DNA of 38,102 nucleotides from positions 1 to 38,102 of the IMG/VR virus record IMGVR_UViG_3300045971_000124, one strand, 5' to 3'. Source of the DNA: a virus. This document shows positions 729 through 38,102 of this stretch, in pieces. Under the pieces are notes generated by a model. That model was not told the DNA's origin and made no database searches. It saw only the letters and a program-made list of their open reading frames with translations. Position 1 is the stretch's first letter. Each line of letters begins with the position of its first letter. A program made the position numbers and the translations under genes.

Positions 729-1151
729 TTACTCTTTAACAAGAAAATCCTCATATTTGGCTCCATTTTCCACTAAATCAGCAAGCCATCCTTCAACTCT
801 TCCCTTGCCAACTTTTGATTTGGTGTAAATGTGACCAGTTGCAGGGTCTTTAAAAGACCTACCCCATAGTTCTCGCGGAAAATTGCTCTTAGTGCCTTTG
901 CTTGCACCTCCACCACTACGTGCAGCACGAGAACCTAACGCCTCAATTCCCTCTGCTTTTGTAAAGCCTTTTGTCTCTAATGACTCAACAAAGAGGGAAC
1001 AGATTTCTTTCAGTTCTTCCTTGCACAGTAAACCCCAATCACCACTTTGGTGTTTAGCAAGTAGTTCAAGTGGTTGCAGTTCATTTTCGCTAAAAAACGC
1101 TAAGGCGTTTCTTGTAATGACTGTTTGACCAAGTTTGAAAAGTGCTGACAT
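729..1151 (-). CDS. Small DNA-binding protein with H-NS-like C-terminal domain (putative)
   Basis: 140 residues, starting at ATG 1151 after CGGAG at 7-nt spacing. The first ~45 residues (KLGQTVITRNAL...LELLAKHQSGDWGLL) resemble a small family common on proteobacterial plasmids, recognised by the L(A/L)..HxSGDWG signature; its function is unknown. The C-terminal ~45 residues (FKDPATGHIYTKSKVGKGRVEGWL...GAKYEDFLVKE) look like the DNA-binding domain of H-NS, with a GKGR loop where H-NS has GQGR and an ending like the H-NS DDFL. The gene has its own terminator downstream and palindromes upstream, so it is likely an independently regulated nucleoid-type or regulatory protein. The domain assignment rests on motif resemblance only. 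Confidence 0.7.
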   Translation of the reverse strand: MSALFKLGQTVITRNALAFFSENELQPLELLAKHQSGDWGLLCKEELKEICSLFVESLETKGFTKAEGIEALGSRAARSGGGASKGTKSNFPRELWGRSFKDPATGHIYTKSKVGKGRVEGWLADLVENGAKYEDFLVKE

Positions 1152-1277: not shown

Positions 1278-2555
1278 GCATTAAAAGAATTTCAGCATGA
1301 TTTATGAGCAAATATGGCTTTCTCAGTATGTAGAAGGCAGGTTTCACTATAAGTTATGCTGAAAATAACTCATTCTCTTGACATGTTCTATAGACGCGGA
1401 ATTGCAAGAACATACTAATGTACTATCTGCTCTGTAAATGTGAAATTAGGGTCAAAAAAGTGGCACGACAGGCATGAAGAATGCAGGTTTTTCCACCTGT
1501 TTTTCAATGGGTACCTTTGCAAATACAGTGAATTACCTTAGTGGTTTTCACAACATCGAAAAAAAATTTAAATGGCTTGACAGATGAAACGGTAGGGTAC
1601 CCTTTTGATTAGCCCCAGTTTTTAAATTGTGAACTAAACCTATTACCTGAGTTGACCTTTTGATACCCAGGTTTGAAAACTGTCAAGACATTTTTGACTA
1701 CCGCCAAGCAGATCACCAACCTAAACGCGGTATACCCCAGCCTGTCAATCGATATATCAGATATATTTCGCCTCCAACCTATTGACAGATTTGAATCACT
1801 GTGGCCTTATGATGACCTACCACACCACCTGTATCAATGTGTGGCATATCTTGTAGCACTGTGTGGTGAATGGTGATGCACGGTCACCAATGGTGACGTG
1901 TGCGTAACCTATTGATATCATTGAGCAATATCAAACGCTTATCTGACCATCACTGACCGTCTGCCCCATAGTTTGTATATGTAGTTATGGGTCGTAACTT
2001 AGTTACATCATAGGCTATGGTATTAATAGCATAGAATAAGTTAGTAACTAAGTTACGATGTCAAGCCATACCAGACTGAATAGGCCTGTCTCTATGATGT
2101 CAAGAACTGTTACATATTTCACTGTACCTATCGGCATATAGATTAGGTTGTTATTCAACCATACGCCGTATCGTATATCAACCATTTGGTAGAACAGCCT
2201 ATCGCACACGCTAACTATTTTTGGTATCGGCAAGTCCATACCGATATCCCTAATGGGTCAGAGGCGGCTATTGATACCATAGCATTGATCTACCTAGATA
2301 ACCTAATCTATTAATCACAATGTCGATGGTTGTTACGAACACTTACAATTGAACTAGATATCGATTTCTTCTGATTATTCAAAATAAGTCAAATAGAGTC
2401 AGACTGAAAAGACCTGATATAGACTTGACAGGTCAGCATGAAGGGGATGATTATTCGAAGGTTACTAAAATAGTGCATGAATGGTTGAGAAGGTTTTGAG
2501 ATGCACTAAAAAAGTGCAGGGGCGCTAGTCAAGTGCAGTCGCCCTCATCGTCATC
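1273..2555. other. Non-coding region dense in inverted repeats
   Basis: No convincing gene is seen in about 1.3 kb; the few short open frames lack ribosome sites and family signatures. Inverted repeats seen: TTTCAGCAT/ATGCTGAAA (1290-1298/1356-1364), CAGGT/ACCTG followed by T5 (1484-1499), CTGTCAAT/ATTGACAG (1742-1749/1781-1788), GTCACC/GGTGAC (1883-1888/1892-1897), TTGATAT/ATATCAA (1912-1918/1928-1934) and a 15-bp pair (1992-2006/2044-2058). The 9-mer CCTTTTGAT repeats at 1601 and 1656. AGTGCA-type elements recur at about 2470-2540. The role is unknown; origin, partition-like site or regulatory hub are possibilities. Confidence 0.7.
1992..2058. repeat. 15-bp inverted repeat with inner stem
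   Basis: Arms TCGTAACTTAGTTAC (1992-2006) and its complement (2044-2058). The 37-nt interval contains an inner GCTAT/ATAGC stem. The arms are themselves near-palindromic (GTAAC...GTTAC), so each could also bind a dimeric protein on its own. Confidence 0.85.
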
Positions 2556-2936
2556 TTAGTCCCCATACACCGTCCCATTGTCTCCCCTACTGCGTGGAGC
2601 CTCCACTCCAATAGGAGCCAAGTTCTTACCCGTCCTATTGCTTGGATCAAAAGAATAGCGTTGCATCTCAAAACCCTCGCTCTCAAACTTCCTTTTCCAA
2701 CGCCATACCGTTTCCCTTGCACAACCAATCTTACGTGCAGTTTTCGATGAACTCCAACCGCACTCTATTAGCGTAGCAAGCACAAGCTTCTGCCAATCGC
2801 TTTTGTATGTAGGCAGCTCTATCTTCTTAACTGCTGTATCAAAACTAACTTTGGTAATGTCTTTTGTCATAATCTTATTTACTTGTATCGTTTGACCTGC
2901 TGTATCAAAACTAACTTTGGTAATGTCTTTTGTCAT
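2556..2936 (-). CDS. Helix-turn-helix protein with duplicated N-terminus
   Basis: 126 residues from ATG 2936, or 104 from ATG 2870. Residues ~46-90 form a helix-turn-helix of the transposase/terminase/regulator type (WQKLVLATLIECGWSSSKTARKIGC, then ARETVWRWKRKF as recognition helix). The first 22 residues (MTKDITKVSFDTA...) are encoded by an exact 66-bp tandem duplication that also copies the start codon and upstream bases, so both starts have the same context and neither has a strong Shine-Dalgarno site. The gene sits between the palindrome field and the iteron/poly-T region, so it is a candidate initiator or regulator of either. The function is not otherwise recognisable. Confidence 0.7.
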   Translation of the reverse strand: MTKDITKVSFDTAGQTIQVNKIMTKDITKVSFDTAVKKIELPTYKSDWQKLVLATLIECGWSSSKTARKIGCARETVWRWKRKFESEGFEMQRYSFDPSNRTGKNLAPIGVEAPRSRGDNGTVYGD

Positions 2937-2965
2937 AATCTTATTTACTTGTATCGTTTGACCTG
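2834..2965. repeat. 66-bp tandem direct duplication
   Basis: Two copies, 2834-2899 and 2900-2965, appear identical at all positions compared. The period is 22 codons, so the reading frame of the HTH gene is kept. The duplicated unit contains the ATG and ~30 nt upstream of it. Confidence 0.9.
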
Positions 2966-2966
2966 T

Positions 2967-3250
2967 TTACCCCTTACACGCGAAACCCCATGAAAACTTT
3001 TAGTAGGGGTACTATACAAATTATTTTTTTTTTTTTTTTTTATTTTTAGAAAATACGTTTTTTTTAATATTTTTTTTTTTTTTTTTTTTTATTTGGACTT
3101 CTACATATACATAGTATAGATTTAAGTGTAAGCTGTAAGCAGTAGTATAAAAGCACTAATAATCGCGTTCCTAGCTACCTAGAATGCCACTTCAACTGCT
3201 TACACACACTGCTTACATGAGCTTACATGACTCATAAAAACATACTGAAT
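2967..3250. other. Candidate replication origin: poly-T tracts plus iterons
   Basis: The region has T runs of 18 (3024-3041), 8 (3058-3065) and 21 (3070-3090) within otherwise A/T sequence, then five copies of GCTTACA: two inverted (3127-3133, 3134-3140) and three direct (3198-3204, 3211-3217, 3221-3227). The last two belong to a tandem GCTTACATGA. An AT-rich unwinding zone next to iterons, beside a primase-helicase gene, is the usual build of initiator-dependent origins such as that of P4. No gene is seen. Homopolymer lengths may be inexact from sequencing. Confidence 0.55.
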
Positions 3251-5487: not shown

Positions 5488-6410
5488 TTCCTACTCTCCT
5501 TTAGTTGTTTTAATACTTCCTCTAATTTACTCTCTTGCTTGTATGCTGGCTTTAAGCAATCATCGCCTAACTCGGATTTGATTGTATATATTACAGTGCC
5601 CATAGTGCAATGATTACCTGAACCCCGTGTTGAGTTCCATACTTTGGTTGCCTCTGCTAAGTCTTTCTCATTAGTTGCATACATAAAGTCTGCTAAACTA
5701 AATCCACCAGCACGTAACCCAAACCCAATACGCATCCATGCATCGCGAGTTGCAAAGGGTGAAATTGATCGTAGACAATCAATGATCTTCTTTCTATCTG
5801 CATCTGTTATGTCTTTGTACTCTTCGTTATACATAGACTCTTTTACAGATGGTGTTGATGTTTTACCTACCTCAATAAATGCACTCACAACTTCGTCATT
5901 GACTGTTCTATCAGTTTTGAATTTGTATTGAGCATTTGGAGTACCGTAAAACAGCCGTGTGGGGTCCAGACACTGCGTATCAGCAGCCGTATACCAGTTA
6001 AGTAGCCCTAGGTATAAGCTCACCATGTCGTTAGCGTCTGTAATGGGTCTCGCAAGTCTAAACATCATCCTAAATCGCGGATACGGATCGTTATCGTTGT
6101 GTGAAGGTGTTGTATAAAAGCCAGCGCCATACTCTTGGAACAGCTCGTCGTTGGCTAAATCTTCAAATGTCATTAGACGCTTTGATTTAGTAATATCGTT
6201 ATCAACATCAATCATAATTAACTCACGCGACTTAAATTGCGTAGCATCCCGCCTATCTGACAAAAGCTCAGAACACGTAGCATGACCATCAGTAGTAATT
6301 AAGGCAAACACATCATCCCAACTTGCGTCAATGTTCATCCAATTGCTACCTAACTTCCAACACTCTTGCTTTGGAAGTTTACCTATTGATTTGTGTATAG
6401 ACAGCTTCAT
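5484..6410 (-). CDS. Primase-polymerase (AEP/PrimPol type) with PriCT-2 domain
   Basis: 308 residues. IMIDVDND (65-72) is the likely catalytic acidic pair. TTPSHNDNDPYPRFRMMFRL (100-119) and DPTRLFYGTP (149-158) are characteristic of archaeo-eukaryotic primases in phages and plasmids. Residues ~198-280 (DADRKKIIDCLRSI...WMRIGFGLRAGG...) form a PriCT-2 domain. It would make primers and possibly extend DNA. It is followed, with 4-nt overlaps, by the DUF5710 protein and the helicase. In NrS-1 these activities sit in one polypeptide; here they are split. No other DNA polymerase is seen in the genome. Confidence 0.85.
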   Translation of the reverse strand: MKLSIHKSIGKLPKQECWKLGSNWMNIDASWDDVFALITTDGHATCSELLSDRRDATQFKSRELIMIDVDNDITKSKRLMTFEDLANDELFQEYGAGFYTTPSHNDNDPYPRFRMMFRLARPITDANDMVSLYLGLLNWYTAADTQCLDPTRLFYGTPNAQYKFKTDRTVNDEVVSAFIEVGKTSTPSVKESMYNEEYKDITDADRKKIIDCLRSISPFATRDAWMRIGFGLRAGGFSLADFMYATNEKDLAEATKVWNSTRGSGNHCTMGTVIYTIKSELGDDCLKPAYKQESKLEEVLKQLKESRK

Positions 6411-7162
6411 TTACGCATAGCCTCTGTAATGGTTATGCCAAACTCATCTTCAAAGCGCCTATGCGAGCCACCTAGTTGATTTAATGCAGCTATGTAAAAG
6501 CCTTTATTGAAGAGATTCTGTGCAGCATGGTCTGATGACACTTTGCAGCCAACAGACACTTGATAAGCGGTAGTTTGTTTTGCTCGCTGTATCTTGTCAT
6601 TTTGCTTCTGTCTAGCAATTTCATCCTCACGCATTTCTTTTGCAATACGGCTAGCATTCTTCAACAACTTTTTGCGGCGCATTGCCTCATGCTCTATAGC
6701 CCACCGCTTATGCTTCTCTTCCCTAATACGATCACGCTCTGCATCCTCTATGGCCTTCTTATGGGCTTTGTAACCAGAGTAAGAAGTCATATTGAGATCA
6801 GTCATCTCCTTAGCAGCGGATTCCATTTCTGCCATCCACTGCTGATTACCCTTCTTCATATTTTTAAGTTTATGGCCAGCCTTTATGTTTTTAATAATGT
6901 GGTCATGCTCTTTATCCGTTGGGCCTTCTGTACCGTAGCTATCAACTTTACGCATCTCCCAAGGCACACCAGCAGCATCAAGTTGCCTTGTATGCTTGTA
7001 TACGTCTGTTTGGGAGTGTTTTGTTGAGCTTACGTGACCATTAATCCTACAATCAGGATTATGTGATTCGCCAACATAGAATGGGTTCCAATTTGGACCA
7101 ACAGGCCCAAGCTCATATATAACACCTGGAACAAAGGTGCCATCTTCCTTTCGCTTTGCCAT
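6407..7162 (-). CDS. GIY-YIG nuclease-domain protein with coiled coil, first gene of the replication operon
   Basis: 251 residues, start at ATG 7162 after AAAGGAATCGCT. N-terminal GIY-YIG-like fold: GVIYELG and PFYVGES (residues ~13-38), then R and H in NPDCRINGH, and an E in TDKEHDHIIK. A basic segment (GHKLKNMKKGN, ~95-105) and a helical coiled coil (~120-195) follow. There are no NUMOD repeats, and it is unlike the other endonucleases in the genome. It overlaps the primase gene by 4 nt. This position suggests a role in replication or recombination, or a homing enzyme adopted by the operon; which one is not decided. Confidence 0.7.
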   Translation of the reverse strand: MAKRKEDGTFVPGVIYELGPVGPNWNPFYVGESHNPDCRINGHVSSTKHSQTDVYKHTRQLDAAGVPWEMRKVDSYGTEGPTDKEHDHIIKNIKAGHKLKNMKKGNQQWMAEMESAAKEMTDLNMTSYSGYKAHKKAIEDAERDRIREEKHKRWAIEHEAMRRKKLLKNASRIAKEMREDEIARQKQNDKIQRAKQTTAYQVSVGCKVSSDHAAQNLFNKGFYIAALNQLGGSHRRFEDEFGITITEAMRK

Positions 7163-9126: not shown

Positions 9127-10578
9127 TTAAATCGTATTTGACGGAACTATAAGCATCTTAACTTCGCCCGTTGTTGAATTAACTTCAATCATTTGGCGAT
9201 GTTTAGCGACATAGTTAAGCGTTTCACTCATATTGGTTAGTTTGCCATTGTTTAAATGGTACTCACGCCATGTCACAATTACAGTAAACCCAGCAGGGTC
9301 AATTGTTGTGCGTTTTAGATCAAATGTCCAGTTAGTAACATTAGCAATGGACTGTAATAACTCTCTAAGTCTATCAAGTGCTACTTCATAACCATCTGTT
9401 TCAGCAATAGTGAATATCTGATTGCGTATACGGTTAAAGTCTATAACAAATGTCGTTATCTCATCGTTACTGTAGCTAACTGCACGTAACCTATCTAATG
9501 AGTTATTAATAGCTTCATGCTCGTCTATTCCATATACAACATTACGCAATCTGTCTAATGAGTTTTGGTAAAACTCATACTCATGCGTTATCTCCATACC
9601 GTTCTCACGTAGGCGTTCTAATGAGTTATTAAACACCTCAAACTCAGGAATATTAAATGTCGCTAACCTGTTGCGATCTAACGCTATCTGCTTAGTATCT
9701 GTTTCAGTAATAGGTAGTAATAATGCTCTTGCTCTATTAAATGACGCTTGCATATTCTCTACTTCATCAATAGTAACAACTGCATTACGAACGCGGCTTA
9801 GCCAGAACGCATTGCCCTGAGTTTCGTTATAAACAAATGCAAAGAGTTTTAACTTAGCAAGCGAAATATTAATTGTTTCTAACTCGTTTACGGTTGTATG
9901 CACTAAACGTAGACGCGATACGCTTGTTGTCACTCCATAGTTCTCTGCGAACCCCAACTGTAAGCCACGAATACACTTTATGGCTGCATTGATAGTCTCT
10001 ACCTCGTCTATGCCCATCTGCACTGTTCTCGCACGTTTTAGAGTGTTGAATGCATAGGCTGTTACTTCATTAATCACCTCAACCAATGTCCTAGTCCTAC
10101 GCAATGCACCAAAACTAAAAGTCTCCAACTCGTTAATCGCTAAACCAAGCGATTTAAGTTTAGTAAGATCAATCGTATACCCTATATGCTCTGCAAGGGA
10201 GAAGGTTAGATATTTCAGCTTACCTAAGAAAACATTAATAGTCTCTGTCTCGTTTATCGTGCCTTGCACACGCCTAAATCGTCTTAGACTTGCTGTAACA
10301 GTTTCTACTTCGTTATTAGTTAAAGCAAATAGCTTCTTCTTTGCTAAGTTAAAGGTAATAGACTCTGCCTCGTTTATATGAGGAATAATGCGTCTATTTC
10401 GTTTTACAGTGTATGAGGTAGACACTGCCTCAGTCACGGTAGGTATAACACGCCTATTGCGTTTTAGTGGAATAGAGCTAACTGCTTCTGCTTCTGCATA
10501 ACTGAATGTCATATCTCTATTTCTGCCACTACCAAGAGCGGATATAGGAGTAGATGCTAATGGAGCAAAGCCTAACAT
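9127..10578 (-). CDS. Tail/appendage protein made of about twenty 20-residue repeats
   Basis: 483 residues. From residue ~17 to ~420 the protein is a chain of about 20 units of 20-21 residues with pattern (R/K)xR/K-x5-(I/V)-x-E-x-E-x5-L; examples are KRNRRIIPHINEAESITFNL and DRLRNVVYGIDEHEAINNSL. The regular alternation suggests stacked beta strands or hairpins with Arg/Glu ladders. The last ~60 residues (FTVIVTWREYHLNNGKLTNM...) are non-repetitive. The end of the protein at 12533-14770 carries two units of the same repeat and a similar WxE tail. It is the last gene of the tail-fibre block. No known family recognised. Confidence 0.75.
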   Translation of the reverse strand: MLGFAPLASTPISALGSGRNRDMTFSYAEAEAVSSIPLKRNRRVIPTVTEAVSTSYTVKRNRRIIPHINEAESITFNLAKKKLFALTNNEVETVTASLRRFRRVQGTINETETINVFLGKLKYLTFSLAEHIGYTIDLTKLKSLGLAINELETFSFGALRRTRTLVEVINEVTAYAFNTLKRARTVQMGIDEVETINAAIKCIRGLQLGFAENYGVTTSVSRLRLVHTTVNELETINISLAKLKLFAFVYNETQGNAFWLSRVRNAVVTIDEVENMQASFNRARALLLPITETDTKQIALDRNRLATFNIPEFEVFNNSLERLRENGMEITHEYEFYQNSLDRLRNVVYGIDEHEAINNSLDRLRAVSYSNDEITTFVIDFNRIRNQIFTIAETDGYEVALDRLRELLQSIANVTNWTFDLKRTTIDPAGFTVIVTWREYHLNNGKLTNMSETLNYVAKHRQMIEVNSTTGEVKMLIVPSNTI

Positions 10579-10579
10579 A

Positions 10580-11107
10580 TTACAACTGCGAGCCTGCTAT
10601 AAACAAGTCATAAACCTGTGCAGTTGTCCAACCCAATGCTGTTGTTAACTGTGCAATTAGTGGATTGCTTCTTTGGACTTCATTACTGAACTCCCACTCA
10701 ATTTGTGCCTGCTGCGAACCTGCTGCAACCGCTGCGTTAACTGTATCTAATAGCCCAGCATTAAGCAATGCTAAACGTGCTTGACGCATAGTTATAGAGG
10801 TTGGAACAGGTGTTGGAGGTGCAACGTATGGAGCAGGAGTATGTGGCTCGTGAACTATTGTTTCAATTACATCACCACCAGATATAACAGTAGGTAAAAC
10901 TTCAGGTATAAATGCTGTTAGTTCAACACCTTCTGAATCAAAAGTAGCAGGGACTTCTGGCACATAGTCAGACCAAACAAACGGTGATCTAATTTCCTCT
11001 ATCCAACCATCACGCCATTTAATAAAATCTGTATTTTCTTGACTAACTAACGCACTATCAGAATCTCTGATAAGCCAAATTCCGTCTGAATGGTATGTGT
11101 AATTCAT
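10580..11107 (-). CDS. Tail fibre-associated protein
   Basis: 175 residues. The N-terminal part is acidic and Pro/Val-rich (e.g. HEPHTPAPYVAPPTPVPTS). The C-terminal ~65 residues (TMRQARLALLNAGLLDTVNAAV...IEWEFSNEVQRSNPLIAQLTTALGWT) match a module common at the ends of phage tail-fibre or fibre-assembly proteins. Its start overlaps the upstream fibre gene's stop by one base (TAATG), so translation is coupled. It probably helps assemble or cap the preceding fibre. Confidence 0.7.
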   Translation of the reverse strand: MNYTYHSDGIWLIRDSDSALVSQENTDFIKWRDGWIEEIRSPFVWSDYVPEVPATFDSEGVELTAFIPEVLPTVISGGDVIETIVHEPHTPAPYVAPPTPVPTSITMRQARLALLNAGLLDTVNAAVAAGSQQAQIEWEFSNEVQRSNPLIAQLTTALGWTTAQVYDLFIAGSQL

Positions 11108-12486
11108 TATAGTTCACTTTCCAAAAGTAATGTCTGTACGCCTGCTGTGGTCTGATAACATATTAAAGCATCAGCAGTTGTGCCTGTAGAGGTAAATCCT
11201 GATCCGTATCCAGATATAGCGTAAGGTGCTACACGCATATCAATTGGGAAGACGGTTTTAGAAGCTGAAGTGCCAACCCATATATCTTGTTTTCGTGTAT
11301 ATCTTTGGCATAACATTTTCTCAATTCCGATTGGGCGTTGTTCAAAAGGAGTTGCTAAACTGCCAGGCTCAAGTTGAACATTAGCTATATCAACTATAGT
11401 GCCAGCAGGAAGTGCAGTTTGAGCATATAGACTAACTGTTATACCCATGGCTCCTGCTGGTACTGTTAATGTAACTGATCTACTTTCCCATACACCAGAT
11501 ACAGGAACAGAACCACTGCCATAACCAGAAATATCAGTTGCAGAACCTGCCATATCTGTTGTTGTAGAAGTAAGTGTCATAGTTCTAAAATATCCTGAGT
11601 AAGCAGTCCCGCTCACACGGACAAGATAACTTAATTTATATAATTTTCCACGCATTCGATAAACAGTCTCTCGTTCTATAGACTGACGTAAGTCAACAAA
11701 CTCTGTTCCTGTTCCTGTTAAACGAATACAATTGGCAATAGTAGAGTCTAAAACTTGGAGTTTTGACATGCTAATACTAGTTCCATTATTCCACCATCTA
11801 TCTGCCAAATAACCATATGTCCCAATAGTCCCGCTAGTTCCACGTAACCATACATCAAACCCGCCGTTAATAATCACGTTCCTAAATCCTGCTAAGTGAC
11901 TTGAGTTTAGTGATCCTACAGTTACCGCACCTGCAATTGTGACTGCACTTGAACTATTTCCAATAGTTACATTACCTCCACCGCCGTTAACAAGTAAGGA
12001 GCTAACAGAAGCACCATTCCATGCTTGTAATGATGTACTATTGAGATATGTATTATTTAAAGAGGTATTGCCTGCTGAAATACCAGATGTCACATTAAGA
12101 CTTGAATTAATTTGTGATGCATCGTTTGCATTAATTGAGTTAACCCAAACATTACCAGTCCCATCGGAATATACAGTTCTACCAGCAGGTATAGTTAGAA
12201 ATATGTTCTTAGTTCCAGCACCCCAACTAACTGCACCGCCTGTGCTTGACCTAATTATTGTCGTTCTTGTTAACATATAAGGATCTGATGATCCTTCACC
12301 TGGAATGACTAATGAACCTTCGCCAATCTCCCAATTAGTTCCATCTTCACAGCAATAAGTGGTCGGTGCTGTTGATCCAAATAATCCAGTATAAAACGAT
12401 TGATAGCCAGCTGATGCACCTAGTAATGCATATGACCCTGTACCTGTGGTTGTTGTTGTCTCTTTAACTCTATCTGCTATTGACAT
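11107..12486 (-). CDS. Tail fibre protein
   Basis: 459 residues. The N-terminus (ADRVKETTTTTGTGSYALLGASAGYQSF) resembles phage fibre or distal-tail attachment segments. The middle is a low-complexity Asn/Ser/Gly region (~125-195). From ~205 a carbohydrate-binding-type module begins: NVIINGGFDVWLRGTS, then YLADRWW, then a beta-rich jelly-roll-like part ending QLEPGSLATPFEQRPIGIEKMLCQRY, a typical ending of such domains. It probably contacts the host surface. It sits between two fibre-like neighbours. Confidence 0.8.
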   Translation of the reverse strand: MSIADRVKETTTTTGTGSYALLGASAGYQSFYTGLFGSTAPTTYCCEDGTNWEIGEGSLVIPGEGSSDPYMLTRTTIIRSSTGGAVSWGAGTKNIFLTIPAGRTVYSDGTGNVWVNSINANDASQINSSLNVTSGISAGNTSLNNTYLNSTSLQAWNGASVSSLLVNGGGGNVTIGNSSSAVTIAGAVTVGSLNSSHLAGFRNVIINGGFDVWLRGTSGTIGTYGYLADRWWNNGTSISMSKLQVLDSTIANCIRLTGTGTEFVDLRQSIERETVYRMRGKLYKLSYLVRVSGTAYSGYFRTMTLTSTTTDMAGSATDISGYGSGSVPVSGVWESRSVTLTVPAGAMGITVSLYAQTALPAGTIVDIANVQLEPGSLATPFEQRPIGIEKMLCQRYTRKQDIWVGTSASKTVFPIDMRVAPYAISGYGSGFTSTGTTADALICYQTTAGVQTLLLESEL

Positions 12487-12532: not shown

Positions 12533-14770
12533 TTATAAATTTATGGTAAATGACTTCAATTGTGATGTACCATCTGCATTTGTTACCCATTCATCCCACT
12601 GAACAATCATGCCAGTAGTATTTGCTCGCCTAATATTTAGCGCATCTATATGTCTACTGTTCTCATCAATGCTTACATTTAGCGACTTATTAACACTAAG
12701 TCCCATGCTCATAGTTGTAGACTCATCAAAAACAATATCAATTGGCACACGATTGTTAATACGCGATGCAAATTCAGCAGTTGATGTTGAAATAGCCTCT
12801 ACAGTAAGTTTCCTTACATTGCTTATACCTACACTAGCATCGCTGCTTGGATGTGCAGTCACGCTCGTTGTCGTTGCTTTTAGCAGTGCAGCTACTTGAG
12901 TTGGTGTAGCTGTTACAGACTTTCCAACTTCTTTCGTTTTAGATGCAGCACTAGATGGGGTTGCTGTTACTGAAATTAATGCGTCTTTAACTACAGCAGC
13001 ACTAGAGCTAGGTGTAGCAGTCATGCTCGTCGCTGTTGCTTTAAACAGTGCAGCTACTTGAGTTGATGTAGCAGTTATTGATTTGGTAATTGCTCTTGCT
13101 TTATCTGCAATACTTGTTGGGTTAGCAGTCCAAACAAGTAATGCGTCTTTGGATACGATTACATTTGAAGTAGGTGTAGCAGTTCTATTAGCCTGTATAC
13201 CTTGCGACTTGCTTGCTGTTGATGTGCTTGTCGCAGATAGTGTTATAGGAATAACTAAAGCACTAATCTTAATAATGCCAGCACTTGCCGTAGAAGTAGA
13301 TGTAGCAGTAAGAGTCTTATATTGAGTGCCTACGTGAACACTCGTTGTTATAGAAGCAGTTGATGTCGCAGTTGAACTAAAAGACTTAGTTAAACCTTTT
13401 AATACATTACCTGAGCTCGATGCTGTAGCATTAATCGTCTTAGTAATTGCTTTAACAACACTAAGCACTGATGTCGATGTCGTGCTACGTGTGGTTGGAG
13501 TTGTAACGCTTGCGAGAATTTTGCTTGTCGTTATGGATGCTGTTGATGTAGACGTAACACTTCTAACCTTACCAACACTCTTAGTGATAACTGGTGTACC
13601 GTAAGCAGTCCAATTCCTGTACTTGGTAATAGCAAACTTAGGTGGTCTAGGATTAGATGTCGATGTCGCAGTAAATAAATGTCCAGATATACTACTTGAA
13701 AAAGATGCCGTGCTTGTAGACGAAGTTGAGCATGTTACGGTGTATGTTGTTCCCGTTGATGGAACTTCTCTTGACCATTGCAAAATCTTTGCTGAACCAG
13801 ATGCCACTACATAAGCATATTTGTTATTTGGAGTTATTGCTACCCCGTATAAAGCAGTTCCAGCACCATTTGATGTTGTGGAAATTAGAGTTAATTGACC
13901 ACTGCTAGTATTCCTACTATATTGAAATATGTTATTTGATCCGTATGTTGCAACATATACGGTTAAACCATCAGGTGAAATACTAATTTCTTGAGGATTA
14001 GTAGTACAAGAAATATCACGAGTTGAGAGTGCTGTTAACAAACCGGTAGAACTATTTCTACTATATTGACTAACAACTGATGAACACACGACATAAACAT
14101 GAGCCCCGTCTGGTGATATACATACGAACTTTGTTGCACCTCCAGCAGTTGCAACCGTTGGTGAACTAAGGGCAGTAAGAAGACCAGTTGTTGAATTACG
14201 ACTATATTGTTGCAATGTTGCGGCACTATAGTTAGCAGAATATACGTGGGCACCATCTGGTGATATACATAAACCTACAGGCGACCCACCAGTCCCAACT
14301 GTTGCTGGGCTAAGTGCTGTTAATACACCTGACGTTGTATTCCTGCTAAATTGACTAATTGTATTATTAGAGAGATTTGTACAATATACATGATTATTGT
14401 CAGGGGATACTTGACACCAAAATCCAGTCTTTGTTCCTACTGTTGCAGGGCTTAGTGCAGTTAATAGTCCAGTCGTAGAGTTCCTACTAAACTGCGACAT
14501 CATGTTAGTACCACCGTTATTTGCTACATATACGTGATTACCATCCGGTGCAACCGTAACCATATTTGGTGATGTACCAGTTGTAACAGATACAGGTGAT
14601 AGAGCAGTTAGTAATCCAGTTGATGAATCAATACTAAATTGTGATGAACTTGCTGAACCCGCATTAGCCGTGTATACGTGCTTACCATCAGGTGAAACAA
14701 ATACGCCAGTTGGTGTAGCACCAGTTGATAAACTGGCTGGAGAAAGTATTGTTAAATTACCTGTTGCCAT
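12533..14770 (-). CDS. Appendage protein: seven-bladed beta-propeller plus Ser/Thr-rich repeat stalk
   Basis: 745 residues. Residues ~1-345 contain seven repeats of ~48 residues with signature LLTALSP...SPDGxHVYxAN...(S/Q)QFSRNSTTG, a YVTN/lactonase-type beta-propeller. Residues ~350-660 hold ~21-residue Ser/Thr/Ala repeats (KSVTATPTQVAALLKATTTS-like) of beta-stalk character. The last ~75 residues carry two units of the 20-residue repeat seen in the protein at 9127-10578 and a WDEW...FTINL tail. The gene lies in the fibre block, so it is likely a receptor-binding or decorating appendage. The propeller assignment is firm; its ligand is unknown. Confidence 0.8.
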   Translation of the reverse strand: MATGNLTILSPASLSTGATPTGVFVSPDGKHVYTANAGSASSSQFSIDSSTGLLTALSPVSVTTGTSPNMVTVAPDGNHVYVANNGGTNMMSQFSRNSTTGLLTALSPATVGTKTGFWCQVSPDNNHVYCTNLSNNTISQFSRNTTSGVLTALSPATVGTGGSPVGLCISPDGAHVYSANYSAATLQQYSRNSTTGLLTALSSPTVATAGGATKFVCISPDGAHVYVVCSSVVSQYSRNSSTGLLTALSTRDISCTTNPQEISISPDGLTVYVATYGSNNIFQYSRNTSSGQLTLISTTSNGAGTALYGVAITPNNKYAYVVASGSAKILQWSREVPSTGTTYTVTCSTSSTSTASFSSSISGHLFTATSTSNPRPPKFAITKYRNWTAYGTPVITKSVGKVRSVTSTSTASITTSKILASVTTPTTRSTTSTSVLSVVKAITKTINATASSSGNVLKGLTKSFSSTATSTASITTSVHVGTQYKTLTATSTSTASAGIIKISALVIPITLSATSTSTASKSQGIQANRTATPTSNVIVSKDALLVWTANPTSIADKARAITKSITATSTQVAALFKATATSMTATPSSSAAVVKDALISVTATPSSAASKTKEVGKSVTATPTQVAALLKATTTSVTAHPSSDASVGISNVRKLTVEAISTSTAEFASRINNRVPIDIVFDESTTMSMGLSVNKSLNVSIDENSRHIDALNIRRANTTGMIVQWDEWVTNADGTSQLKSFTINL

Positions 14771-16150: not shown

Positions 16151-16537
16151 TTATTTATCCTTTGATTTCTTTTCCCTCATAGCAGCCTTCCACTTTAATG
16201 TTCTGTCTGCAAGAGCCTCAGCGGTGTCTGTATGCTTATATCCAGCAATTCCTTCACCACCATCTGTCTTATTAAGTAATGGCCCTTTACCTAAGTCTTT
16301 CCTACCGATAATATTGATCAAATGCATTTCAAGATCAAATGCACCTTGCTCTGAATCTTGTTTATAGATCATTGGTTCCATAGAAAACCCTTCTTTTGAT
16401 CTCTTTTTATTCACATTCGCTAAATGATGTTTACCCCATTTATGTTTCCAAGCACGATCTTCACAACCTTTACCTATGTATATAGGCAGATTTGTTTTTG
16501 GGTCTTTATAGACGTATGTGTAGAATTGTTGTGTCAT
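16151..16537 (-). CDS. GIY-YIG homing endonuclease, short form without NUMOD repeats
   Basis: 128 residues. FYTYVYKDPKTNLPIYIGKG (5-24) holds both nuclease motifs. R in EDRAWKH, the metal Glu in AFDLEMHLINIIGRK and the N of LLNKTDGGEG complete the catalytic set. After ~105 only a short basic tail remains (WKAAMREKKSKDK), so the DNA-binding repeats are lost or were never present. It sits between two tail genes (16640-17002 and 15703-16101) with its own leader. Its middle is closest to the endonuclease at 34052-34690 (EQGAFDLE.HLI..IGRKDLGKGPLLN). Confidence 0.85.
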   Translation of the reverse strand: MTQQFYTYVYKDPKTNLPIYIGKGCEDRAWKHKWGKHHLANVNKKRSKEGFSMEPMIYKQDSEQGAFDLEMHLINIIGRKDLGKGPLLNKTDGGEGIAGYKHTDTAEALADRTLKWKAAMREKKSKDK

Positions 16538-17029: not shown

Positions 17030-17608
17030 TTACCAAGTGAATGAACTTGCTGTAGAGATAGATGATGCAGAAGCTATACTCGTCTTTAGCGAATATGAGT
17101 GAGAGTAGTTATAAACTATTTGTGCAATCATAGCCGCGTAAAATGCATTCCATGCAGATACAGTAGTTATAGAAACAAATGTGTTATCTATTGCTCTCCA
17201 TTCACCAACCCAGCCAGAAGGTAATGCATTATTCAATACGACATAAGCATTAATTCCGTCAATATCAATTCTGCTATATTGATCCATTGAAAAGTCTTTG
17301 CTGCTGTAAGTGAAAGTAGATTGATTAGCAGAAATCCGTGCCTGTTTAATCGCTTCCGTTTGTGCTGCTTGGACATCAGCAAGTGTTCTCAAATCTTCCC
17401 ATGTCTTAGTAGTCCAGTTGAATGTGTAGTAAGATGCGGGTTGAGCAGCCATTTGAACCCAAGCAGTTCCGTTATAGTAATAATCTGATGCAGTAGGTTC
17501 ACCCTCAATAAGTGACTCACCGCTTCCTAATGTACCAACGCTGTCTGCTGATGGCATATCATATATTGCTAACTGCTTTCCATCACTATTAATTTTTGTA
17601 TATTTCAT
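17030..17608 (-). CDS. DUF4376-like tail protein
   Basis: 192 residues. The N-terminal half (YYYNGTAWVQMAAQPASYYTFNWTTKTWED) is the usual lead-in, and from ~75 (LADVQAAQTEAIKQARISANQSTFTYSSKDFSMDQYSRIDIDG) it matches the DUF4376 module of phage fibre-associated proteins. Its start overlaps the end of the J-like gene by 4 nt, so it is coupled to tail-tip expression and is probably a fibre or tip accessory. Confidence 0.7.
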   Translation of the reverse strand: MKYTKINSDGKQLAIYDMPSADSVGTLGSGESLIEGEPTASDYYYNGTAWVQMAAQPASYYTFNWTTKTWEDLRTLADVQAAQTEAIKQARISANQSTFTYSSKDFSMDQYSRIDIDGINAYVVLNNALPSGWVGEWRAIDNTFVSITTVSAWNAFYAAMIAQIVYNYSHSYSLKTSIASASSISTASSFTW

Positions 17609-20600
17609 CTCTTAGTTCCTATTGCAAATAATGAAGCACCAGACTTCACTATAGATGTACCTGTTCCAGTAATTCCATCTATATATTGTGATATGCCGCG
17701 TAGTTCAATATGTCTATTTCCACCGCCAGATACAGATGTTGATATAGCAAATGGACCTTCTAAATTTGTCTCAATTTGTTGCACTCCATCTACCCATATT
17801 GATACCTTTGGATATAAAGTAAAACTCACTCCTGAACCACCGCCAGATACTAAAGGAGCGGCGCCCATTGCACATATCCATATCGGTGCCCCTTGGACAT
17901 CAACATAGCAATCTAAGATTACGGTTGTTGAGTATCTGTTACATACAATATCTGATGTCGTTTTAACACTAACAGGGAATGTAATTGCATTACCAGCAAT
18001 CTGTAATGTGTTAACTGCCAAGTCGGCAATAAATGTAGATGCATTACTGCTATTGATTTGCTGGTTCACTGTAAAGTTGAACGGACCATAATCAACCATA
18101 GTTCCATTATTCGGAATACCACCTGGCATTACAGAGTAAGAAGGAATTAAGTAAATCTCAATCTTATAAATTGGCTTTGCTACGCCACTAACAATCGCAT
18201 TAGCAGTAAATGCCATATCTTGCCAACCAGAAACTGTGTTGTCTGTAATTGGAACCCAGTTATCCACCATTTGTGTTAACGATGAATTGGTATACAACCT
18301 AACCAAGAACTGAGGCTTACCACCACCAACATTTGCAACCATAAACATGCTGCAAGTACCAGTAATATATGACCCAGCAGGTAGCGGTTTGGTGTATGTG
18401 TACCCTTTAACCGCCCATGTGTCGCTATATGTTGTTAACCTAACTGAGTGAGGTGCGTTATGTGTATTGCTTGTTGTTTTTGCAATAGTGCCACCTGCAG
18501 GACCATAGAATGTCCATCCGTCAGGTGCTGTTCCTGTTGATGCACCACTCCATGCTGCATAACTTGAGTTGAATCCCATGTGTGCAGAATCGTCTGAACC
18601 CAACACACTACCAGCGGAAAGTATTACCGTTCCATTCGCATCTTTGATACTCAATCCTCGAGCATCAATCTGTGTTGCTGTAATAGTATTAGTAGCAATT
18701 CTGTCACCAGTAATAGTTCCAGCTGCAATTTCAGCGGCAGTAATAGTACCAGCAGCAATCTTAGATGCATCAATAGTATCTGCACCAATATTATTTGCTG
18801 TTAATATACCAACCTGAGCAGTTCCAATTGCAGCACCATCAATATATGTAGTTGCATTAGCGGAAGTGATTTTGCTAAGTGATGCAAATGTACCTGCTCC
18901 AAGTCCAGTTAGTGTGACATTGCTATTCAACCAACCAGCATCTGGTGTTATGTAAGTAGATGTCCATTTAGTAGGAGTACCACCTGAATCAAATAGTAAA
19001 GTTCCATCTGCCTTCTTAATTGTTAATCCACGAGTATCAATCTTTGCTGCTGTTAAAAGTCCTGTTATATGTGCATCGTTGATCGTCGCATTCGCAATTT
19101 GTGCTGATCCAGTAATAACAGCAGAGCCTGTAACTAACTGACTTGAGCCAATTGTGCCAGCCAATATAAAGCCACCATCCATGTATGCATTACCATCACC
19201 ATACTCTAATGACGTGCCGCCTCTATACGTGGCGACAATCATTTTGTTAGTCGCTATTGCATTTGTTATCGTGGACGTAGCAGAGAGCGTGGAAGACCCC
19301 TCCGTGAGGTAGATATAAAGCATTCCACTTGTCCATGCCGCATTGCCAGCACTTACTGCCCAAGTCGTACCTAATCCGCTGCCTTGTGTTTTAGATGCAG
19401 TGCATGAAGTCCACGAAACATAGTTAGTAGATGGACTATTTGGAGTCCAAATGATGCCCGTTAACTTATACTCATTTGTATTATTTGGTGATGATGTTGT
19501 GCCACTTGCTGATGCAGATACATTTAATCCTGTGGCATTTGCTTTATCTGACTCAGCAGTAAAGTGGTCATAAGCCGCAACCTTGTAATAGTAAGTCGTT
19601 CCATCTGCCAACCCAGCGGATAGGAATGCGTTACTATCTAAGTCAGCAATTAAGTTAGCAGCACTTGGTGTAAACGTTGAAGCGACATCACGCCAAATCA
19701 AGTAGCCAGCAAAGTCGTTATCTGCAATAGTATTCCATTTCAAGTTAATACCTTGGAATCCTCCATTAGTTGTTAACCCAGTTACCGCAACAGGTGCTGG
19801 ATTATTAAATGTAGCAGTTACTGGATTAGATATGTTGTTATTTGAATCACGACAACGAACTTGAACCTGCACATTACGACGTGGACCGCTATCAGCCATA
19901 TTCATGGAATATGTGTAGGAGAACGTCTGTGTTTGTCCTGCGTTGACGGACTTAATATATTCCGTTCTTACAGTAGTTGAACCAGTTGTCTCTATAAACC
20001 GAACATCAAAGTCTTTGAGTGTTGCTGCTACTGTTGAATTAGTGGAAGGATTAACCCAAGAGAAGTTTATATCCATACCACTAAACGTAGTACCACCACC
20101 TATAATTTGAAGCGTTGTAGGGGCATTTAATGGGCTTGCTCCACCTCCTGCACTGCTTATGGTGTAAGTGCCTGTCGCATCAGGTCCAATAACTCCGTTA
20201 ACCGCATTTACTGCATACACTTGAACTTCGTAAGTTCCTTCTAATACATTAGATAACTCATAGGACGAAGTAGTTAGCGGAACCTCAACCCATGAAGTTG
20301 CTGACCTGCGATATCTAAGAACATAACTGCTAACAATTCCCTGCGATGGTCTTGTCCAACTTATCATCAATGATCTATGAATGACATTGTTTACATTAGT
20401 AGAAGCCTCACGGAACGCTAAGTTAAGTGGTGCAGATGGGATAGTTACTGGAGTTTGGTAAACAGGCGTTGGTCCTGTTGGTGTATTATCTACACGACCA
20501 AATTTATTTGGGTCATATTCAACAGCAGCGACTTCATATTTGCCTGTACTTGCTTCTGTTACACCAATTACTTTGAATAGGCGAGGGCTAATAGCACCTG

Positions 20601-22323
20601 TAAATATTACATCTGCACCAACGGAAACACTAATAGCACCACCGCTAAATGAGACAGAGAATGTATTAGTAGCAGTTGCAGATACTGTGCGATTGTAAAT
20701 TGTTACTCCATCACTACCTACCACATCAAATGTATTACCTGCGATAACGCTAACTGCACGATCAAGATTAATTGTTGATGTAGACCAAGAAGTAACTTTA
20801 GCCTCGTTCATTACCGAGGCATAGTCTGTGTCCATTAACTTAAACACTTCGCCAGGCTCAAACCCAGCATTAGCAAAACCAACAGTAAATGTAACCGAGT
20901 CTGTATTATTAACACCCGTATCAACAACCCACTTTGCTTTACGCATTGCCTGACCTTCGGTTGTAATACCAATGCCAGTTGTTTCATTCACATTTAGCCC
21001 ATATCGTGATGTTGCTGCTGTATCCTCGTAATAGCAAGGAACGCTTAACCAATTCTCTGCTGGGTTATTCCAATAAACAATAGCAGCGGATGATCTTGTA
21101 TCGCCTGGAGATGAAACATAGGAAAATAAACCATTTTCGACATTTGAGTTAGTAATGATTCGTGAGTAACCAGTAGGACGATCTTGAACTAACTTAACTC
21201 TGTTACCTGATGTATACACGACTGCATTAAATGTAGCTGCTACATTTTGAATAGTTGTCCATGCACTTTCCTGTGTCATGAATTGATAATTGAACGTATA
21301 ACGCGGTTCTGTGCCGCTAATAGAGCCCATTACTAATGCAGGCACATATCCATCGTTATATACCGCAGCGTCATAAAACGAGTATTGATCAATATCGCTT
21401 GCTTGTATAACGTTACCCATTCCGTGCGAGTCATTAGTTAGCAAGTCATATAACACCCATGCTGGGTTATCACATACTTCAGGTAATGACTTAAATGTGC
21501 CATCCCATGTACCGCTATAACTGCGAGTTGATACTGTATAGTTAGAAGGAACTTTAACCTTAATTCCGTAACTGTCCATCGCTACCAATGGATAACTTGA
21601 TCCTGTTGCTTCCGCAGTTACAGTTAACCCAATTACGGCTCGATTGTTATATGACTTACTTACGAGTTGAATTTCAGCAACTGCCTGTAAGTAGATATCA
21701 TTAGCCAAAGTCATTGCTGAGTTATCAGCAGTAATACGAACTACCTTAATAGACCAAGTGCCTGTTCCTGACGGACGATCAATCATATAATCGCAATCAG
21801 CAGGTGAGGTGCATTTATCGTTCTTAGTAATTGTCTTAACTAAACTAAATGCACCTGCACCTAGTCTACGATGTATCTCAAAACTTACAGATGTTCCTGT
21901 CGTATCTCCATTTGTTTGTTGGGCAAATAGTGCAGGGAATCTAATTGTCACACGCATTGCATCAGGTGCAGACGTAGATGAGGTATATGTAACAGATGTC
22001 CCTGTTGTTACCTTAGCACCTACATTGTATGTAGATGAAGCAGACGGATAACCGCTCATTACAGACTGAGAAGGTAATCCATATCGTTCATCTAACGAGA
22101 TATTACTAAAATTTGTCGTTCCATTTGCATTCATTACAGGCACATTATTGAAGTAAACAGATTTCAATTTGTTAGACTGATCCGCTAAACCTCCAACTTC
22201 ACCATCACTTGTAAGAAATATTACTCGTGCAGTGCTTTTAGATATAAGAGTATTTGGTGAATCTACAGGTGTATCTCCACCGCCACCGCCACCCATACCA
22301 ACAATATTTTCTATTTGTTTCAT
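17605..22323 (-). CDS. J: Tail tip / host specificity protein (lambda J-like)
   Basis: 1572 residues. The N-terminus has a Gly-rich linker (GMGGGGGGDTP), a long beta-rich core (~30-620) with WVLYDLLTNDSHGMG and the VRWPSE-like tail-tip architecture, and fibronectin-type modules at ~630-930 (PSAPLNLAFREAS, PVAVTGLTTNGG). A central collagen-like/stem repeat series follows (AATIDASKIAAGTITAAEIAAGTITGDRIA, ~1130-1230), then a C-terminal beta-rich receptor-binding part. The order K-I-J is conserved upstream. It is expected to bind the host receptor and trigger DNA release. Confidence 0.93.
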   Translation of the reverse strand: MKQIENIVGMGGGGGGDTPVDSPNTLISKSTARVIFLTSDGEVGGLADQSNKLKSVYFNNVPVMNANGTTNFSNISLDERYGLPSQSVMSGYPSASSTYNVGAKVTTGTSVTYTSSTSAPDAMRVTIRFPALFAQQTNGDTTGTSVSFEIHRRLGAGAFSLVKTITKNDKCTSPADCDYMIDRPSGTGTWSIKVVRITADNSAMTLANDIYLQAVAEIQLVSKSYNNRAVIGLTVTAEATGSSYPLVAMDSYGIKVKVPSNYTVSTRSYSGTWDGTFKSLPEVCDNPAWVLYDLLTNDSHGMGNVIQASDIDQYSFYDAAVYNDGYVPALVMGSISGTEPRYTFNYQFMTQESAWTTIQNVAATFNAVVYTSGNRVKLVQDRPTGYSRIITNSNVENGLFSYVSSPGDTRSSAAIVYWNNPAENWLSVPCYYEDTAATSRYGLNVNETTGIGITTEGQAMRKAKWVVDTGVNNTDSVTFTVGFANAGFEPGEVFKLMDTDYASVMNEAKVTSWSTSTINLDRAVSVIAGNTFDVVGSDGVTIYNRTVSATATNTFSVSFSGGAISVSVGADVIFTGAISPRLFKVIGVTEASTGKYEVAAVEYDPNKFGRVDNTPTGPTPVYQTPVTIPSAPLNLAFREASTNVNNVIHRSLMISWTRPSQGIVSSYVLRYRRSATSWVEVPLTTSSYELSNVLEGTYEVQVYAVNAVNGVIGPDATGTYTISSAGGGASPLNAPTTLQIIGGGTTFSGMDINFSWVNPSTNSTVAATLKDFDVRFIETTGSTTVRTEYIKSVNAGQTQTFSYTYSMNMADSGPRRNVQVQVRCRDSNNNISNPVTATFNNPAPVAVTGLTTNGGFQGINLKWNTIADNDFAGYLIWRDVASTFTPSAANLIADLDSNAFLSAGLADGTTYYYKVAAYDHFTAESDKANATGLNVSASASGTTSSPNNTNEYKLTGIIWTPNSPSTNYVSWTSCTASKTQGSGLGTTWAVSAGNAAWTSGMLYIYLTEGSSTLSATSTITNAIATNKMIVATYRGGTSLEYGDGNAYMDGGFILAGTIGSSQLVTGSAVITGSAQIANATINDAHITGLLTAAKIDTRGLTIKKADGTLLFDSGGTPTKWTSTYITPDAGWLNSNVTLTGLGAGTFASLSKITSANATTYIDGAAIGTAQVGILTANNIGADTIDASKIAAGTITAAEIAAGTITGDRIATNTITATQIDARGLSIKDANGTVILSAGSVLGSDDSAHMGFNSSYAAWSGASTGTAPDGWTFYGPAGGTIAKTTSNTHNAPHSVRLTTYSDTWAVKGYTYTKPLPAGSYITGTCSMFMVANVGGGKPQFLVRLYTNSSLTQMVDNWVPITDNTVSGWQDMAFTANAIVSGVAKPIYKIEIYLIPSYSVMPGGIPNNGTMVDYGPFNFTVNQQINSSNASTFIADLAVNTLQIAGNAITFPVSVKTTSDIVCNRYSTTVILDCYVDVQGAPIWICAMGAAPLVSGGGSGVSFTLYPKVSIWVDGVQQIETNLEGPFAISTSVSGGGNRHIELRGISQYIDGITGTGTSIVKSGASLFAIGTKR

Positions 22324-30257: not shown

Positions 30258-30818
30258 TTAATTTCCCCTTTTTCTATTTATCTGTGCATTAATTCTTGCT
30301 TGTGACCAGGGTTTACCTTTTCTGGCTTTGGATAGAGCTTCTTTATGCTCAACAGTAAATGTCTTACCGAATTTCGCTAAAGACATCATTAACTTAGTTT
30401 CATTGCTTCGCTTCCTACCTGTTGTTTGTGAAATTCGTTTGTTGATGGTATATAGTGACTGCTTTTGACCTTTTTGCGATATTGAATTTGCTAATCCAAT
30501 TTTTCTCTTAGTCTCTTCAGTATGTTTTCTTCCACTTTCTCCCTCACCACCGTTAGTCAAATTAAACAGAGTTCCAGTTCCTAAGTCAGCTCTACCATAT
30601 TGTTCAATCCAAACTTCCTCCATGAACAATGCAGTAGCATCATCTATTTCAAAGTTTATTATTGGATATATTTCATATCCTTCCCTAATTCTTTTTCGCA
30701 GCAAATTTCCCAACCGTGTTTTAGCAGATAAGTGGTCCCATGCTCGTTCATTAGTTCCTTTTTCAATATAAACTGGAATATTTGTTTTTGGGTCTTTATA
30801 TAGATATGTATAAATCAT
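30258..30818 (-). CDS. GIY-YIG homing endonuclease with NUMOD3 repeats, altered YIG motif
   Basis: 186 residues from ATG 30818 (MIYTYLYKDPKTNIPVYIEKG); the upstream ATG-like start at 30833 has no better context. The YIG motif reads YIE (G to E). R in NERAWDH, E in EEVWIEQYGR and N in LFNLTNGG are kept. At least three NUMOD3-type repeats follow (HTEETKRKIGLANS, RSNETKLMMSLAKFGK, TVEHKEALSKARKGK). It lies between the capsid gene and the FmdB-like gene, downstream of the capsid terminator. Confidence 0.82.
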   Translation of the reverse strand: MIYTYLYKDPKTNIPVYIEKGTNERAWDHLSAKTRLGNLLRKRIREGYEIYPIINFEIDDATALFMEEVWIEQYGRADLGTGTLFNLTNGGEGESGRKHTEETKRKIGLANSISQKGQKQSLYTINKRISQTTGRKRSNETKLMMSLAKFGKTFTVEHKEALSKARKGKPWSQARINAQINRKRGN

Positions 30819-30837
30819 ATGATATTTATACAAATGA

Positions 30838-34059: not shown

Positions 34060-34690
34060 TTTTTAATCCTTTGTTCCACGGAACTCGCCCTTTGTAATTA
34101 GGGTTTTCTCTGGCTCTTTGTTTTGCTTCTTCACTCATCTTCCTATTTTCAAAAGTTTTACCTTTAGTAGGAGATGGACGACCTCTTTGTTTTGCTGCTC
34201 TCTTTTCAATAGTTTCTTTGCTTTGTTTTTTGCCAAGATTAGCGATTGAATTTTTTGTACCAATTTTTTGTTTAGTTGTCTCTTTGCAGGCTCTACCTGT
34301 ATTAGAGATTCTCATTGCTTCAATAGCTTTAATGTTTACTCCACGCTGTTTTGCAGATATAGATTGCTTCTCTTTTGTTGACTCTTTAACTACCCAACCA
34401 GAGTTTCCTTCGCCACCATCTGTTAAATTAAGTAATGGACCTTTACCTAAGTCTTTACGCCCGATAACACTAATCAGATGTATTTCAAGATCAAATGCAC
34501 CTTGCTCTGAATCTTGTAGGAATAACTTTGGCTCTACTGCATAATCTTCCTTAGTTCTCTTTTTTATTAAATTACCTAAGTGATGTTTTCCACGAAAGTG
34601 ATCCCAGGCTCTATTTCCATGACCTTTGCCTACATAGACAGGTAGATTTGTTTTTGGATCAAAGTAAACATAGGTATAAAATTGCTTCAT
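34052..34690 (-). CDS. GIY-YIG homing endonuclease with NUMOD3 repeats
   Basis: 212 residues. FYTYVYFDPKTNLPVYVGKG (4-23) has intact nuclease motifs, R in GNRAWDH, E in AFDLEIHLISVIGRK, N in LLNLTDGGEG. Several NUMOD3-like repeats follow (STKEKQSISAKQRG, TTKQKIGTKNSIANLGKK, SKETIEKRAAKQRGR, MSEEAKQRARENPNYKG). It is inserted between the large terminase and the portal; its last codons overlap the portal start. Closest relative in the window is 16151-16537. Confidence 0.88.
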   Translation of the reverse strand: MKQFYTYVYFDPKTNLPVYVGKGHGNRAWDHFRGKHHLGNLIKKRTKEDYAVEPKLFLQDSEQGAFDLEIHLISVIGRKDLGKGPLLNLTDGGEGNSGWVVKESTKEKQSISAKQRGVNIKAIEAMRISNTGRACKETTKQKIGTKNSIANLGKKQSKETIEKRAAKQRGRPSPTKGKTFENRKMSEEAKQRARENPNYKGRVPWNKGLKNV

Positions 34691-37743: not shown

Positions 37744-38102
37744 TTATATTGCTTTTTCTGTGAAACTAGCATACTCTTCTTTTGATATGTAGTAATACTC
37801 TTTTGGGCGGGATTTTATCCTATTCCAAATAGTTGATATGTTTATATTATTGGCATTTGCAGCTATTGTTGGTGAAGCGTATGGACCAGTATGTGTCATT
37901 ATTGGTTTTTGTTTTGCTAAGGATAGTTTTGCTTTATGTTCAGCAGATAGAGTTTTTCCTTTTTTGTAGGAATGATTTCTACCTTTATGTTCAGCAGATA
38001 GAGTTTTTCCTTTTTTGTAGGAATGATTTCTACCTTTATGTTCAGCAGATAGAGTTTTTCCTTTTTTGTAGGAATGATTTCTACCTTTATGAGATACTGA
38101 CA
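37744..38102 (-). CDS. GIY-YIG homing endonuclease, C-terminal part (continues from position 1)
   Basis: This is the 3' part of the gene that starts at 577. It contains three 51-bp repeats (37936-38088), then LSLAKQKPIMTHTGPYASP, and a C-terminal NUMOD1-like helix-turn-helix (TIAANANNINISTIWNRIKSRPKEYYYIS). The stop is at 37744-37746. The right end joins in frame to position ~128 of the left end. Confidence 0.88.
   Translation of the reverse strand, partial: SVSHKGRNHSYKKGKTLSAEHKGRNHSYKKGKTLSAEHKGRNHSYKKGKTLSAEHKAKLSLAKQKPIMTHTGPYASPTIAANANNINISTIWNRIKSRPKEYYYISKEEYASFTEKAI
37914..38102. repeat. Terminal redundancy of the contig (circular join)
   Basis: 37914-38040 is identical to 1-127. 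The last 62 bases also match the left end when shifted by one 51-bp unit (38102 aligns with 138). The closed molecule would be 37,913 or 37,964 bp, depending on whether two or three repeat units are real. Confidence 0.9.
37936..38088. repeat. 51-bp tandem repeat (3 copies)
   Basis: Exact units begin at 37936, 37987 and 38038; the left end of the contig has only two. In frame, 17 residues per unit. Confidence 0.95.

Follow-up and report, generated by a model that had tools for sequence, protein, structure and literature searches.

A tail-cluster phage protein with a 20-residue repeat of charge-inverted halves behind a shared N-terminal tag: a candidate fibre shaft

The window analyzed here is the whole 38,102-nucleotide stretch of the IMG/VR virus record IMGVR_UViG_3300045971_000124 (positions 1 to 38,102). 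A tail gene cluster headed by a J-type gene ends with a gene encoding a 483 aa protein built mostly of R- and E-patterned repeats (hereafter the R/E protein). The features concerned are the following:

17605..22323, (-) strand, J-type central tail fibre, which opens the cluster (phrog_31, E-value = 3e-182)
11107..12486, (-) strand, 459 aa fibre protein (phrog_4492, "tail fiber protein", E-value = 3.6e-34)
10580..11107, (-) strand, 175 aa gene directly upstream of the R/E gene (phrog_6034, function unknown, E-value = 1.4e-18)
9127..10578, (-) strand, R/E repeat protein gene, 483 aa, at the end of the tail cluster
10540..10578, (-) strand, N-terminal tag (residues 1-13), MLGFAPLASTPIS, a proposed anchor to the virion
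9316..10527, (-) strand, twenty 20-residue units, residues 18-421, each pairing a basic ten-residue half with an acidic one
9130..9315, (-) strand, C-terminal segment outside the repeat, residues 422-483, proposed cap or tip, with no family match

All genes from J through the R/E gene lie on one strand, and the ATG of the R/E gene begins one base past the stop of the preceding gene (TAATATG). The same cluster encodes a 745 aa protein at 12533-14770 (-), which combines a lactonase-type β-propeller (PF10282, E-value = 7.1e-31) with T/S-rich repeats (lags 54 and 18); it was considered as a paralogue of the R/E protein and rejected (BLASTP E-value = 2.3; no match to the unit profile). Elsewhere in the window, four ORFs at 2-577, 16151-16537, 30258-30833 and 34052-34690 (-), perhaps together with 6407-7162, share a start resembling YTYxxKDPKTNLPxYxxKG. 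These are putative GIY-YIG homing endonucleases, although Pfam detected only NUMOD3, in two of them; four such ORFs are many for a 38-kb phage. Both window ends (1-577 and 37744-38102) lie inside a 17-residue tandem repeat of one such ORF, whose halves appear to continue across the ends, thus suggesting a circular map cut within the repeat; no exact terminal repeat of at least 21 bases was found there. Additionally, the 140 aa protein at 729-1151 (-) has a weak match, under the cut-off, to the H-NS C-terminal domain (PF00816, E-value = 0.0062).

The 20-residue repeat of the R/E protein is real. A sequence-only reading of this DNA had proposed about twenty 20-residue units over some 85% of the protein, and both estimates held, as 20 full units occupy 404 of the 483 residues (84%), with the register placed by hand and four one-residue insertions, all L, after units 1, 7, 8 and 16. 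Autocorrelation gave z = 11.6 at lag 20, 9.8 at lag 40 and 5.7 at lag 60, whereas no lag in any of 1000 shuffles exceeded 4.4. Free segmentation reached a score of 440.7; the best of 30 shuffles, which were given fewer starting phases and rounds than the real sequence, reached 331.7. The proposed pattern (R/K)xRxxxxx(I/V)xExE was recovered as well: R/K occupies position 2 in 19 and position 4 in all 20 units, I/V position 10 in 14/20, E position 12 in 18/20 and D/E position 14 in 12/20 (E in 10). Positions 6, 8, 10, 16, 18 and 20 are mainly V, L, F or I, odd positions are variable, and neither Gly nor Pro is conserved at any position. A pentapeptide repeat was ruled out (charge lag 5, z = -0.8; lag 5 outside the top autocorrelation lags). 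Concerning the age of the repeat, mean pairwise identity between units is 24% for protein and 38.7% for DNA, adjacent units (24% protein, 40% DNA) are not closer than all pairs, and redrawing the codons at random with the residues kept gives a DNA identity of 38.3% (sd 0.5). Unit DNA is thus about as similar as random synonymous codons would make it, which agrees with the earlier view of an old repeat maintained by selection at the protein level.

Two features were absent from that reading: the shared N-terminal tag, treated below, and the opposite charge of the two halves of each unit. The unit can be written as x(+)x(+)xΦxΦxΦ followed by x(-)x(-)xΦxΦxΦ, i.e., one plan with opposite charges, and the charge product changes sign at every half-period (z = -11.2 at lag 10, +11.2 at lag 20, -9.3 at lag 30, +9.7 at lag 40 and -7.4 at lag 50). 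Large and charged residues taken together alternate with period two (power 5.53 against a null of 1.04, sd 0.27, max 2.03, in 1000 shuffles). For hydrophobic residues alone the power was 2.01 and the null was invalid (nan, maximum 2.25), so that the alternation is supported only when hydrophobic and charged residues are combined.

Comparison of the R/E protein with Pfam, NCBIfam and PDB gave nothing at accepted scores. NCBIfam had no match above its cut-off for the tagged set described below, PDB sequence searches returned nothing under an E-value of 0.3, and PHROGs matched none of eight tagged or related proteins at E-value 0.01. Two weak rows were seen for the R/E protein, namely Pfam PF25296 Decapeptide (E-value = 0.0012), whose 19.2 bits stay under the curated cut-off of 45, and phrog_14065, which carries no known function (E-value = 9.3e-4, 18.5 bits; residues 32-210 against 749-923 of 1152). 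The profile search that had been proposed for a characterized fibre family matched no such family. In the literature searched, the tag strings were not found and no account of a 20-residue R/E repeat was present among the matches listed; Syn5 horn and Bcep22 came up as side leads.

Concerning the repeat itself, a scan of viral contigs with the whole R/E protein returned 6 stretches, an alignment of its own units 378 and an alignment of five tagged proteins 219, and none of these was confirmed as a relative of the repeat. A tblastn search of 50,697 phage records gave no relative, its single match being a chance one on the antisense strand, and of 4,527 ORFs in the fetched loci the unit profile picked out none at threshold besides the R/E protein itself. 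Single BLASTP comparisons with the tagged proteins of loci L041 and L046 gave E-values of 6e-8 and 8e-6, in alignments that span the tag and the first units with much of the match in the tag. With phmmer against 4,109 ORFs of the fetched loci, L041 came first (E-value = 4.9e-4), and L031 and L005 gave 0.015 and 0.034; an antisense ORF of L002 (E-value = 0.003) was taken as chance. Judging from these sequence searches, the R/E form appears to be known from this one genome only, and a near-identical contig (L003/L004) stops short of the R/E gene. In a related phage (L005), whose J protein is 46% identical in its best segment, a 486 aa repeat protein at 20425-21885 closes the fibre cluster at the same place as the R/E gene. 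It shows a weaker form of the charge pattern (z = -2.5 at lag 10 and +5.5 at lag 20), starts with MSLLLLFKPS instead of the tag, has no Pfam or PHROGs match and is not significantly similar to the R/E protein (E-value = 0.021).

The N-terminus tells a different story. The R/E protein carries the tag M(L/F)GF(A/G)PxAxxP, which matches at least 80 stretches of environmental viral contigs, and columns M1, G3, F4, A5, P6, A8 and P11 are invariant in an alignment of five rows. The earlier reading, which did not recognize the family, made the protein look more isolated than it is: its N-terminus joins it to a large uncharacterized set of phage repeat proteins. In 78 of the 80 tag matches listed, the tag begins a frame of at least 39 aa, and the frames of L020 (9 aa) and L021 (15 aa) were taken as chance. 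The 219 stretches returned with the alignment of five tagged proteins carry M(L/F)GFAP(L/F)A. After removal of 11 near-duplicates and 4 short ORFs, 65 distinct tagged ORFs (at least 60 aa) remained among the matches listed, and in 62 of them the best lag was reached by none of 300 shuffles (exceptions: L025, 20 shuffles; L027, 1; L040, 3). Their periods are mostly 20-23 residues and their repeat chemistries differ widely. A period of 17-24 at z of at least 5 occurs in 51 of 55 tagged ORFs (at least 140 aa) against 10 of 377 other same-strand ORFs of the same loci. The R/E protein thus has in common with these uncharacterized MLGFAPLASxP proteins the tag, the tandem units of ~20-23 residues behind it and the fibre-type neighbours, whereas its R/E halves had no match by the unit profile in the fetched loci and the C-terminal segments are dissimilar. 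Fourteen tagged relatives have 8 or more positive and 8 or more negative charges; none of them changes sign at the half-period, and in three the charges at lag 10 are alike (z = 2.3, 3.5 and 3.8); half-unit symmetry as a general feature of tagged proteins was also dropped, with a half-period z above 2.5 in only 15/40.

Variants and outliers of the tag were also met. The N-terminus of gp68 of Pelagibacter phage HTVC023P (a hypothetical protein), retrieved by similarity to a tagged protein, is a variant tag. A narrow tag pattern matched L041 only, and among cellular genomes a stricter one, requiring I after P, matched a single contig, which belongs to a Lysobacter MAG (L091); the rarity of the tag in cellular genomes rests on this stricter pattern. 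In L091 the tagged gene comes after a TTTTGTG-type gene, as in the genome of the R/E protein. At 2076-3218 (-) of that contig, the tag and repeats are fused to a C-terminal domain that annotated structural proteins of Pseudomonas phage KPP25 and Acidovorax phage AP1 also contain; these two lack the tag, and the domain they share is missing from the R/E protein.

As for the neighbourhood, the 459 aa fibre protein two genes upstream places a fibre-type neighbour within three genes of the R/E gene, and its TTTTGTG-type start recurs beside tagged genes. Of 60 distinct tagged loci, 50 contain one or more of four hallmark neighbour types no further than three ORFs away (TTTTGTG type 23, WGxxxN 19, DTSP 15, NxSFP 13), the motifs having been picked post hoc from the very loci in which they were then counted. 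A Peptidase_S74 fibre as constant neighbour was rejected (motif within three genes in 3/48 loci). In L009, L059, L069 and others, large TTTTGTG-type neighbours are themselves periodic, at 17 residues (z 9-12). Nine proteins were scanned against PHROGs: L015 matched tail fibre assembly, L071 tail fibre, and the downstream gene of L046 head decoration, virion structural protein and tail fibre families; L017 and L005 matched phrog_1084 (function unknown), which is located after J both in the genome of the R/E protein and in L005, and L042, L019, L022 and the upstream gene of L046 matched families of unknown function only. These head-type rows, together with the listing of phrog_26502 (matched by L091) under head and packaging, would fit a virion protein other than an adsorption fibre, such as a head or neck decoration or a whisker. 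We regard this as improbable, given that the R/E gene closes a J-headed cluster and comes after a tail fibre protein.

Structure prediction gave unequal results for the R/E protein and its relatives. AlphaFold2 on residues 261-421, with a seven-row alignment only, yielded a mostly helical model (pLDDT 46, pTM 0.20), which is too poor to be informative and lends β-structure no support. As the only model of the R/E protein, it is what speaks for a helical protein or a non-virion, intracellular late protein (e.g., a chaperone) with incidental alternation; such a protein is very unlikely in view of a period-two pattern beyond the shuffles, the position in a tail cluster and tagged relatives with predicted strands. 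For the tagged relative L047 (14 rows), the mean pLDDT was 79 and the pTM 0.75, with pLDDT 80-97 in ten-residue blocks from 21 to 190 and below 50 in the tag (residues 1-21) and at the C-terminus. The model, which is of good confidence, contains 16 strands of 8-9 residues arranged as stacked β pairs, two strands per 22-residue unit, behind a disordered tag. Its structural neighbours are single-chain β-helices (SufB/D, Z = 11.7, the best; pectate lyase, Z = 10.5), and judged by these, L047 looks like a single-chain solenoid. With Foldseek, none of 63 PDB matches reached an E-value of 0.001, and 2 of 276 in BFVD did, both uncharacterized proteins of uncultured phages; a weaker BFVD row was the Bcep22 virion-associated protein (E-value = 0.04). 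What carries the L047 model over to the R/E protein is the shared tag and the strand-like alternation, rather than any likeness of the repeats.

On balance, we lean slightly toward a reading in which the R/E protein belongs to the tail module and forms the shaft of a fibre on the virion. Its short N-terminal tag, conserved among relatives, would hold it to the particle, the 20 units would build a long β-structured shaft, and the last ~60 residues may cap it or bear its tip. Each unit would form two strands of ~8 residues, one with two basic and the other with two acidic residues, the charged residues sharing a face with the conserved hydrophobic ones; the L047 model supports two strands per unit and a disordered tag. 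Basic and acidic strands would then stack in alternation, as a salt-bridge zipper along the shaft, and the simplest cause of this alternation would be three intertwined chains, as in the T4 gp5 spike, with strand n resting on strand n+1 of the next chain. By geometric reasoning, successive strands on a face of an intertwined trimer are successive repeats of different chains, so that alternating charge makes a zipper. If the protein is a fibre shaft, we rate this intertwined zipper at somewhat less than an even chance. That the protein is present in the virion, is anchored there by its tag, trimerizes, stacks its strands alternately and takes part in adsorption is all inferred.

The zipper competes with a single-chain two-sheet solenoid, in which one sheet would hold all basic strands and the other all acidic ones, giving a polar rod; two or three such rods could pair sideways, basic to acidic, or the basic face could bind a polyanion such as a surface polysaccharide. 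The confident single-chain model of L047 and its β-helical neighbours point this way, although L047 is tied to the R/E protein by the tag and not by repeat sequence. Both arrangements agree with the charge signs seen at lags 10 and 20, but electrostatics favours the zipper: in a single-chain two-strand solenoid like charges would stack on like, and two like-charge ladders at one-strand spacing over twenty coils would be costly without a partner. We rate the solenoid as unlikely. The initial suggestion of a solenoid or trimeric fibre with charge ladders survives in this general form, as the best reading of the pattern, the tail location and the relatives.

A wider proposal, which we hold only tentatively and as less likely than not, is an undescribed architecture comprising a charge-alternating β shaft, an intertwined-chain zipper and a common tag onto which environmental phages graft many unrelated shafts of 20-23-residue pitch. 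The tag unites repeat proteins with seemingly unrelated repeats that the family libraries searched leave unnamed. If it is an anchor, about a dozen residues would suffice to recognize how a large class of fibres in environmental phages attaches to the virion. In the charge-alternating variant, nature would offer a case of strand register fixed by salt bridges, a rule testable by mutation and useful for the design of fibrous proteins.

Among known systems, the triple β-spiral of the adenovirus fibre has repeats of ~15 residues with a conserved Gly/Pro turn, a definition outside which the R/E protein falls, with its units of 20 residues and no such turn. The general plan is nevertheless similar, since adenovirus-type fibres have a short conserved N-terminal anchor, a repeat shaft and a variable end (described in part in PMC12796354), comparable to the short conserved N-terminal stretch, repeat shaft and variable end of the R/E protein. 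The tail fibre of Agrobacterium phage 7-7-1 (9rkv) is a trimeric long fibre with a β-helical middle section (PMC12796354); it aligns with the L047 model (Z = 8.1, rmsd 4.3, 191 residues), a match that concerns this relative, lies within the range of a common arrangement and has a Foldseek E-value of 4.6. The closest parallel for the charges is the triple-stranded β-helix of the T4 gp5 central spike, where one repeat position is occupied by E and K in turn, with salt bridges that span the structure (PMC4576200), and where, as in the R/E protein, the charge sign flips between successive strand-length repeats. Used as a control, the intertwined stretch of gp5 (residues 428-575) gave charge products of z = -3.8 at lag 8, +2.3 at lag 16, -0.9 at lag 24 and +2.5 at lag 32. 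The gp5 helix is made of eight-residue VxGxxxxx units, whereas the R/E protein has ten-residue halves, a period of 20 and no conserved Gly. As it lies outside the sequence definitions of both the gp5 helix and the triple β-spiral, the R/E protein may work like them without being classed with either.
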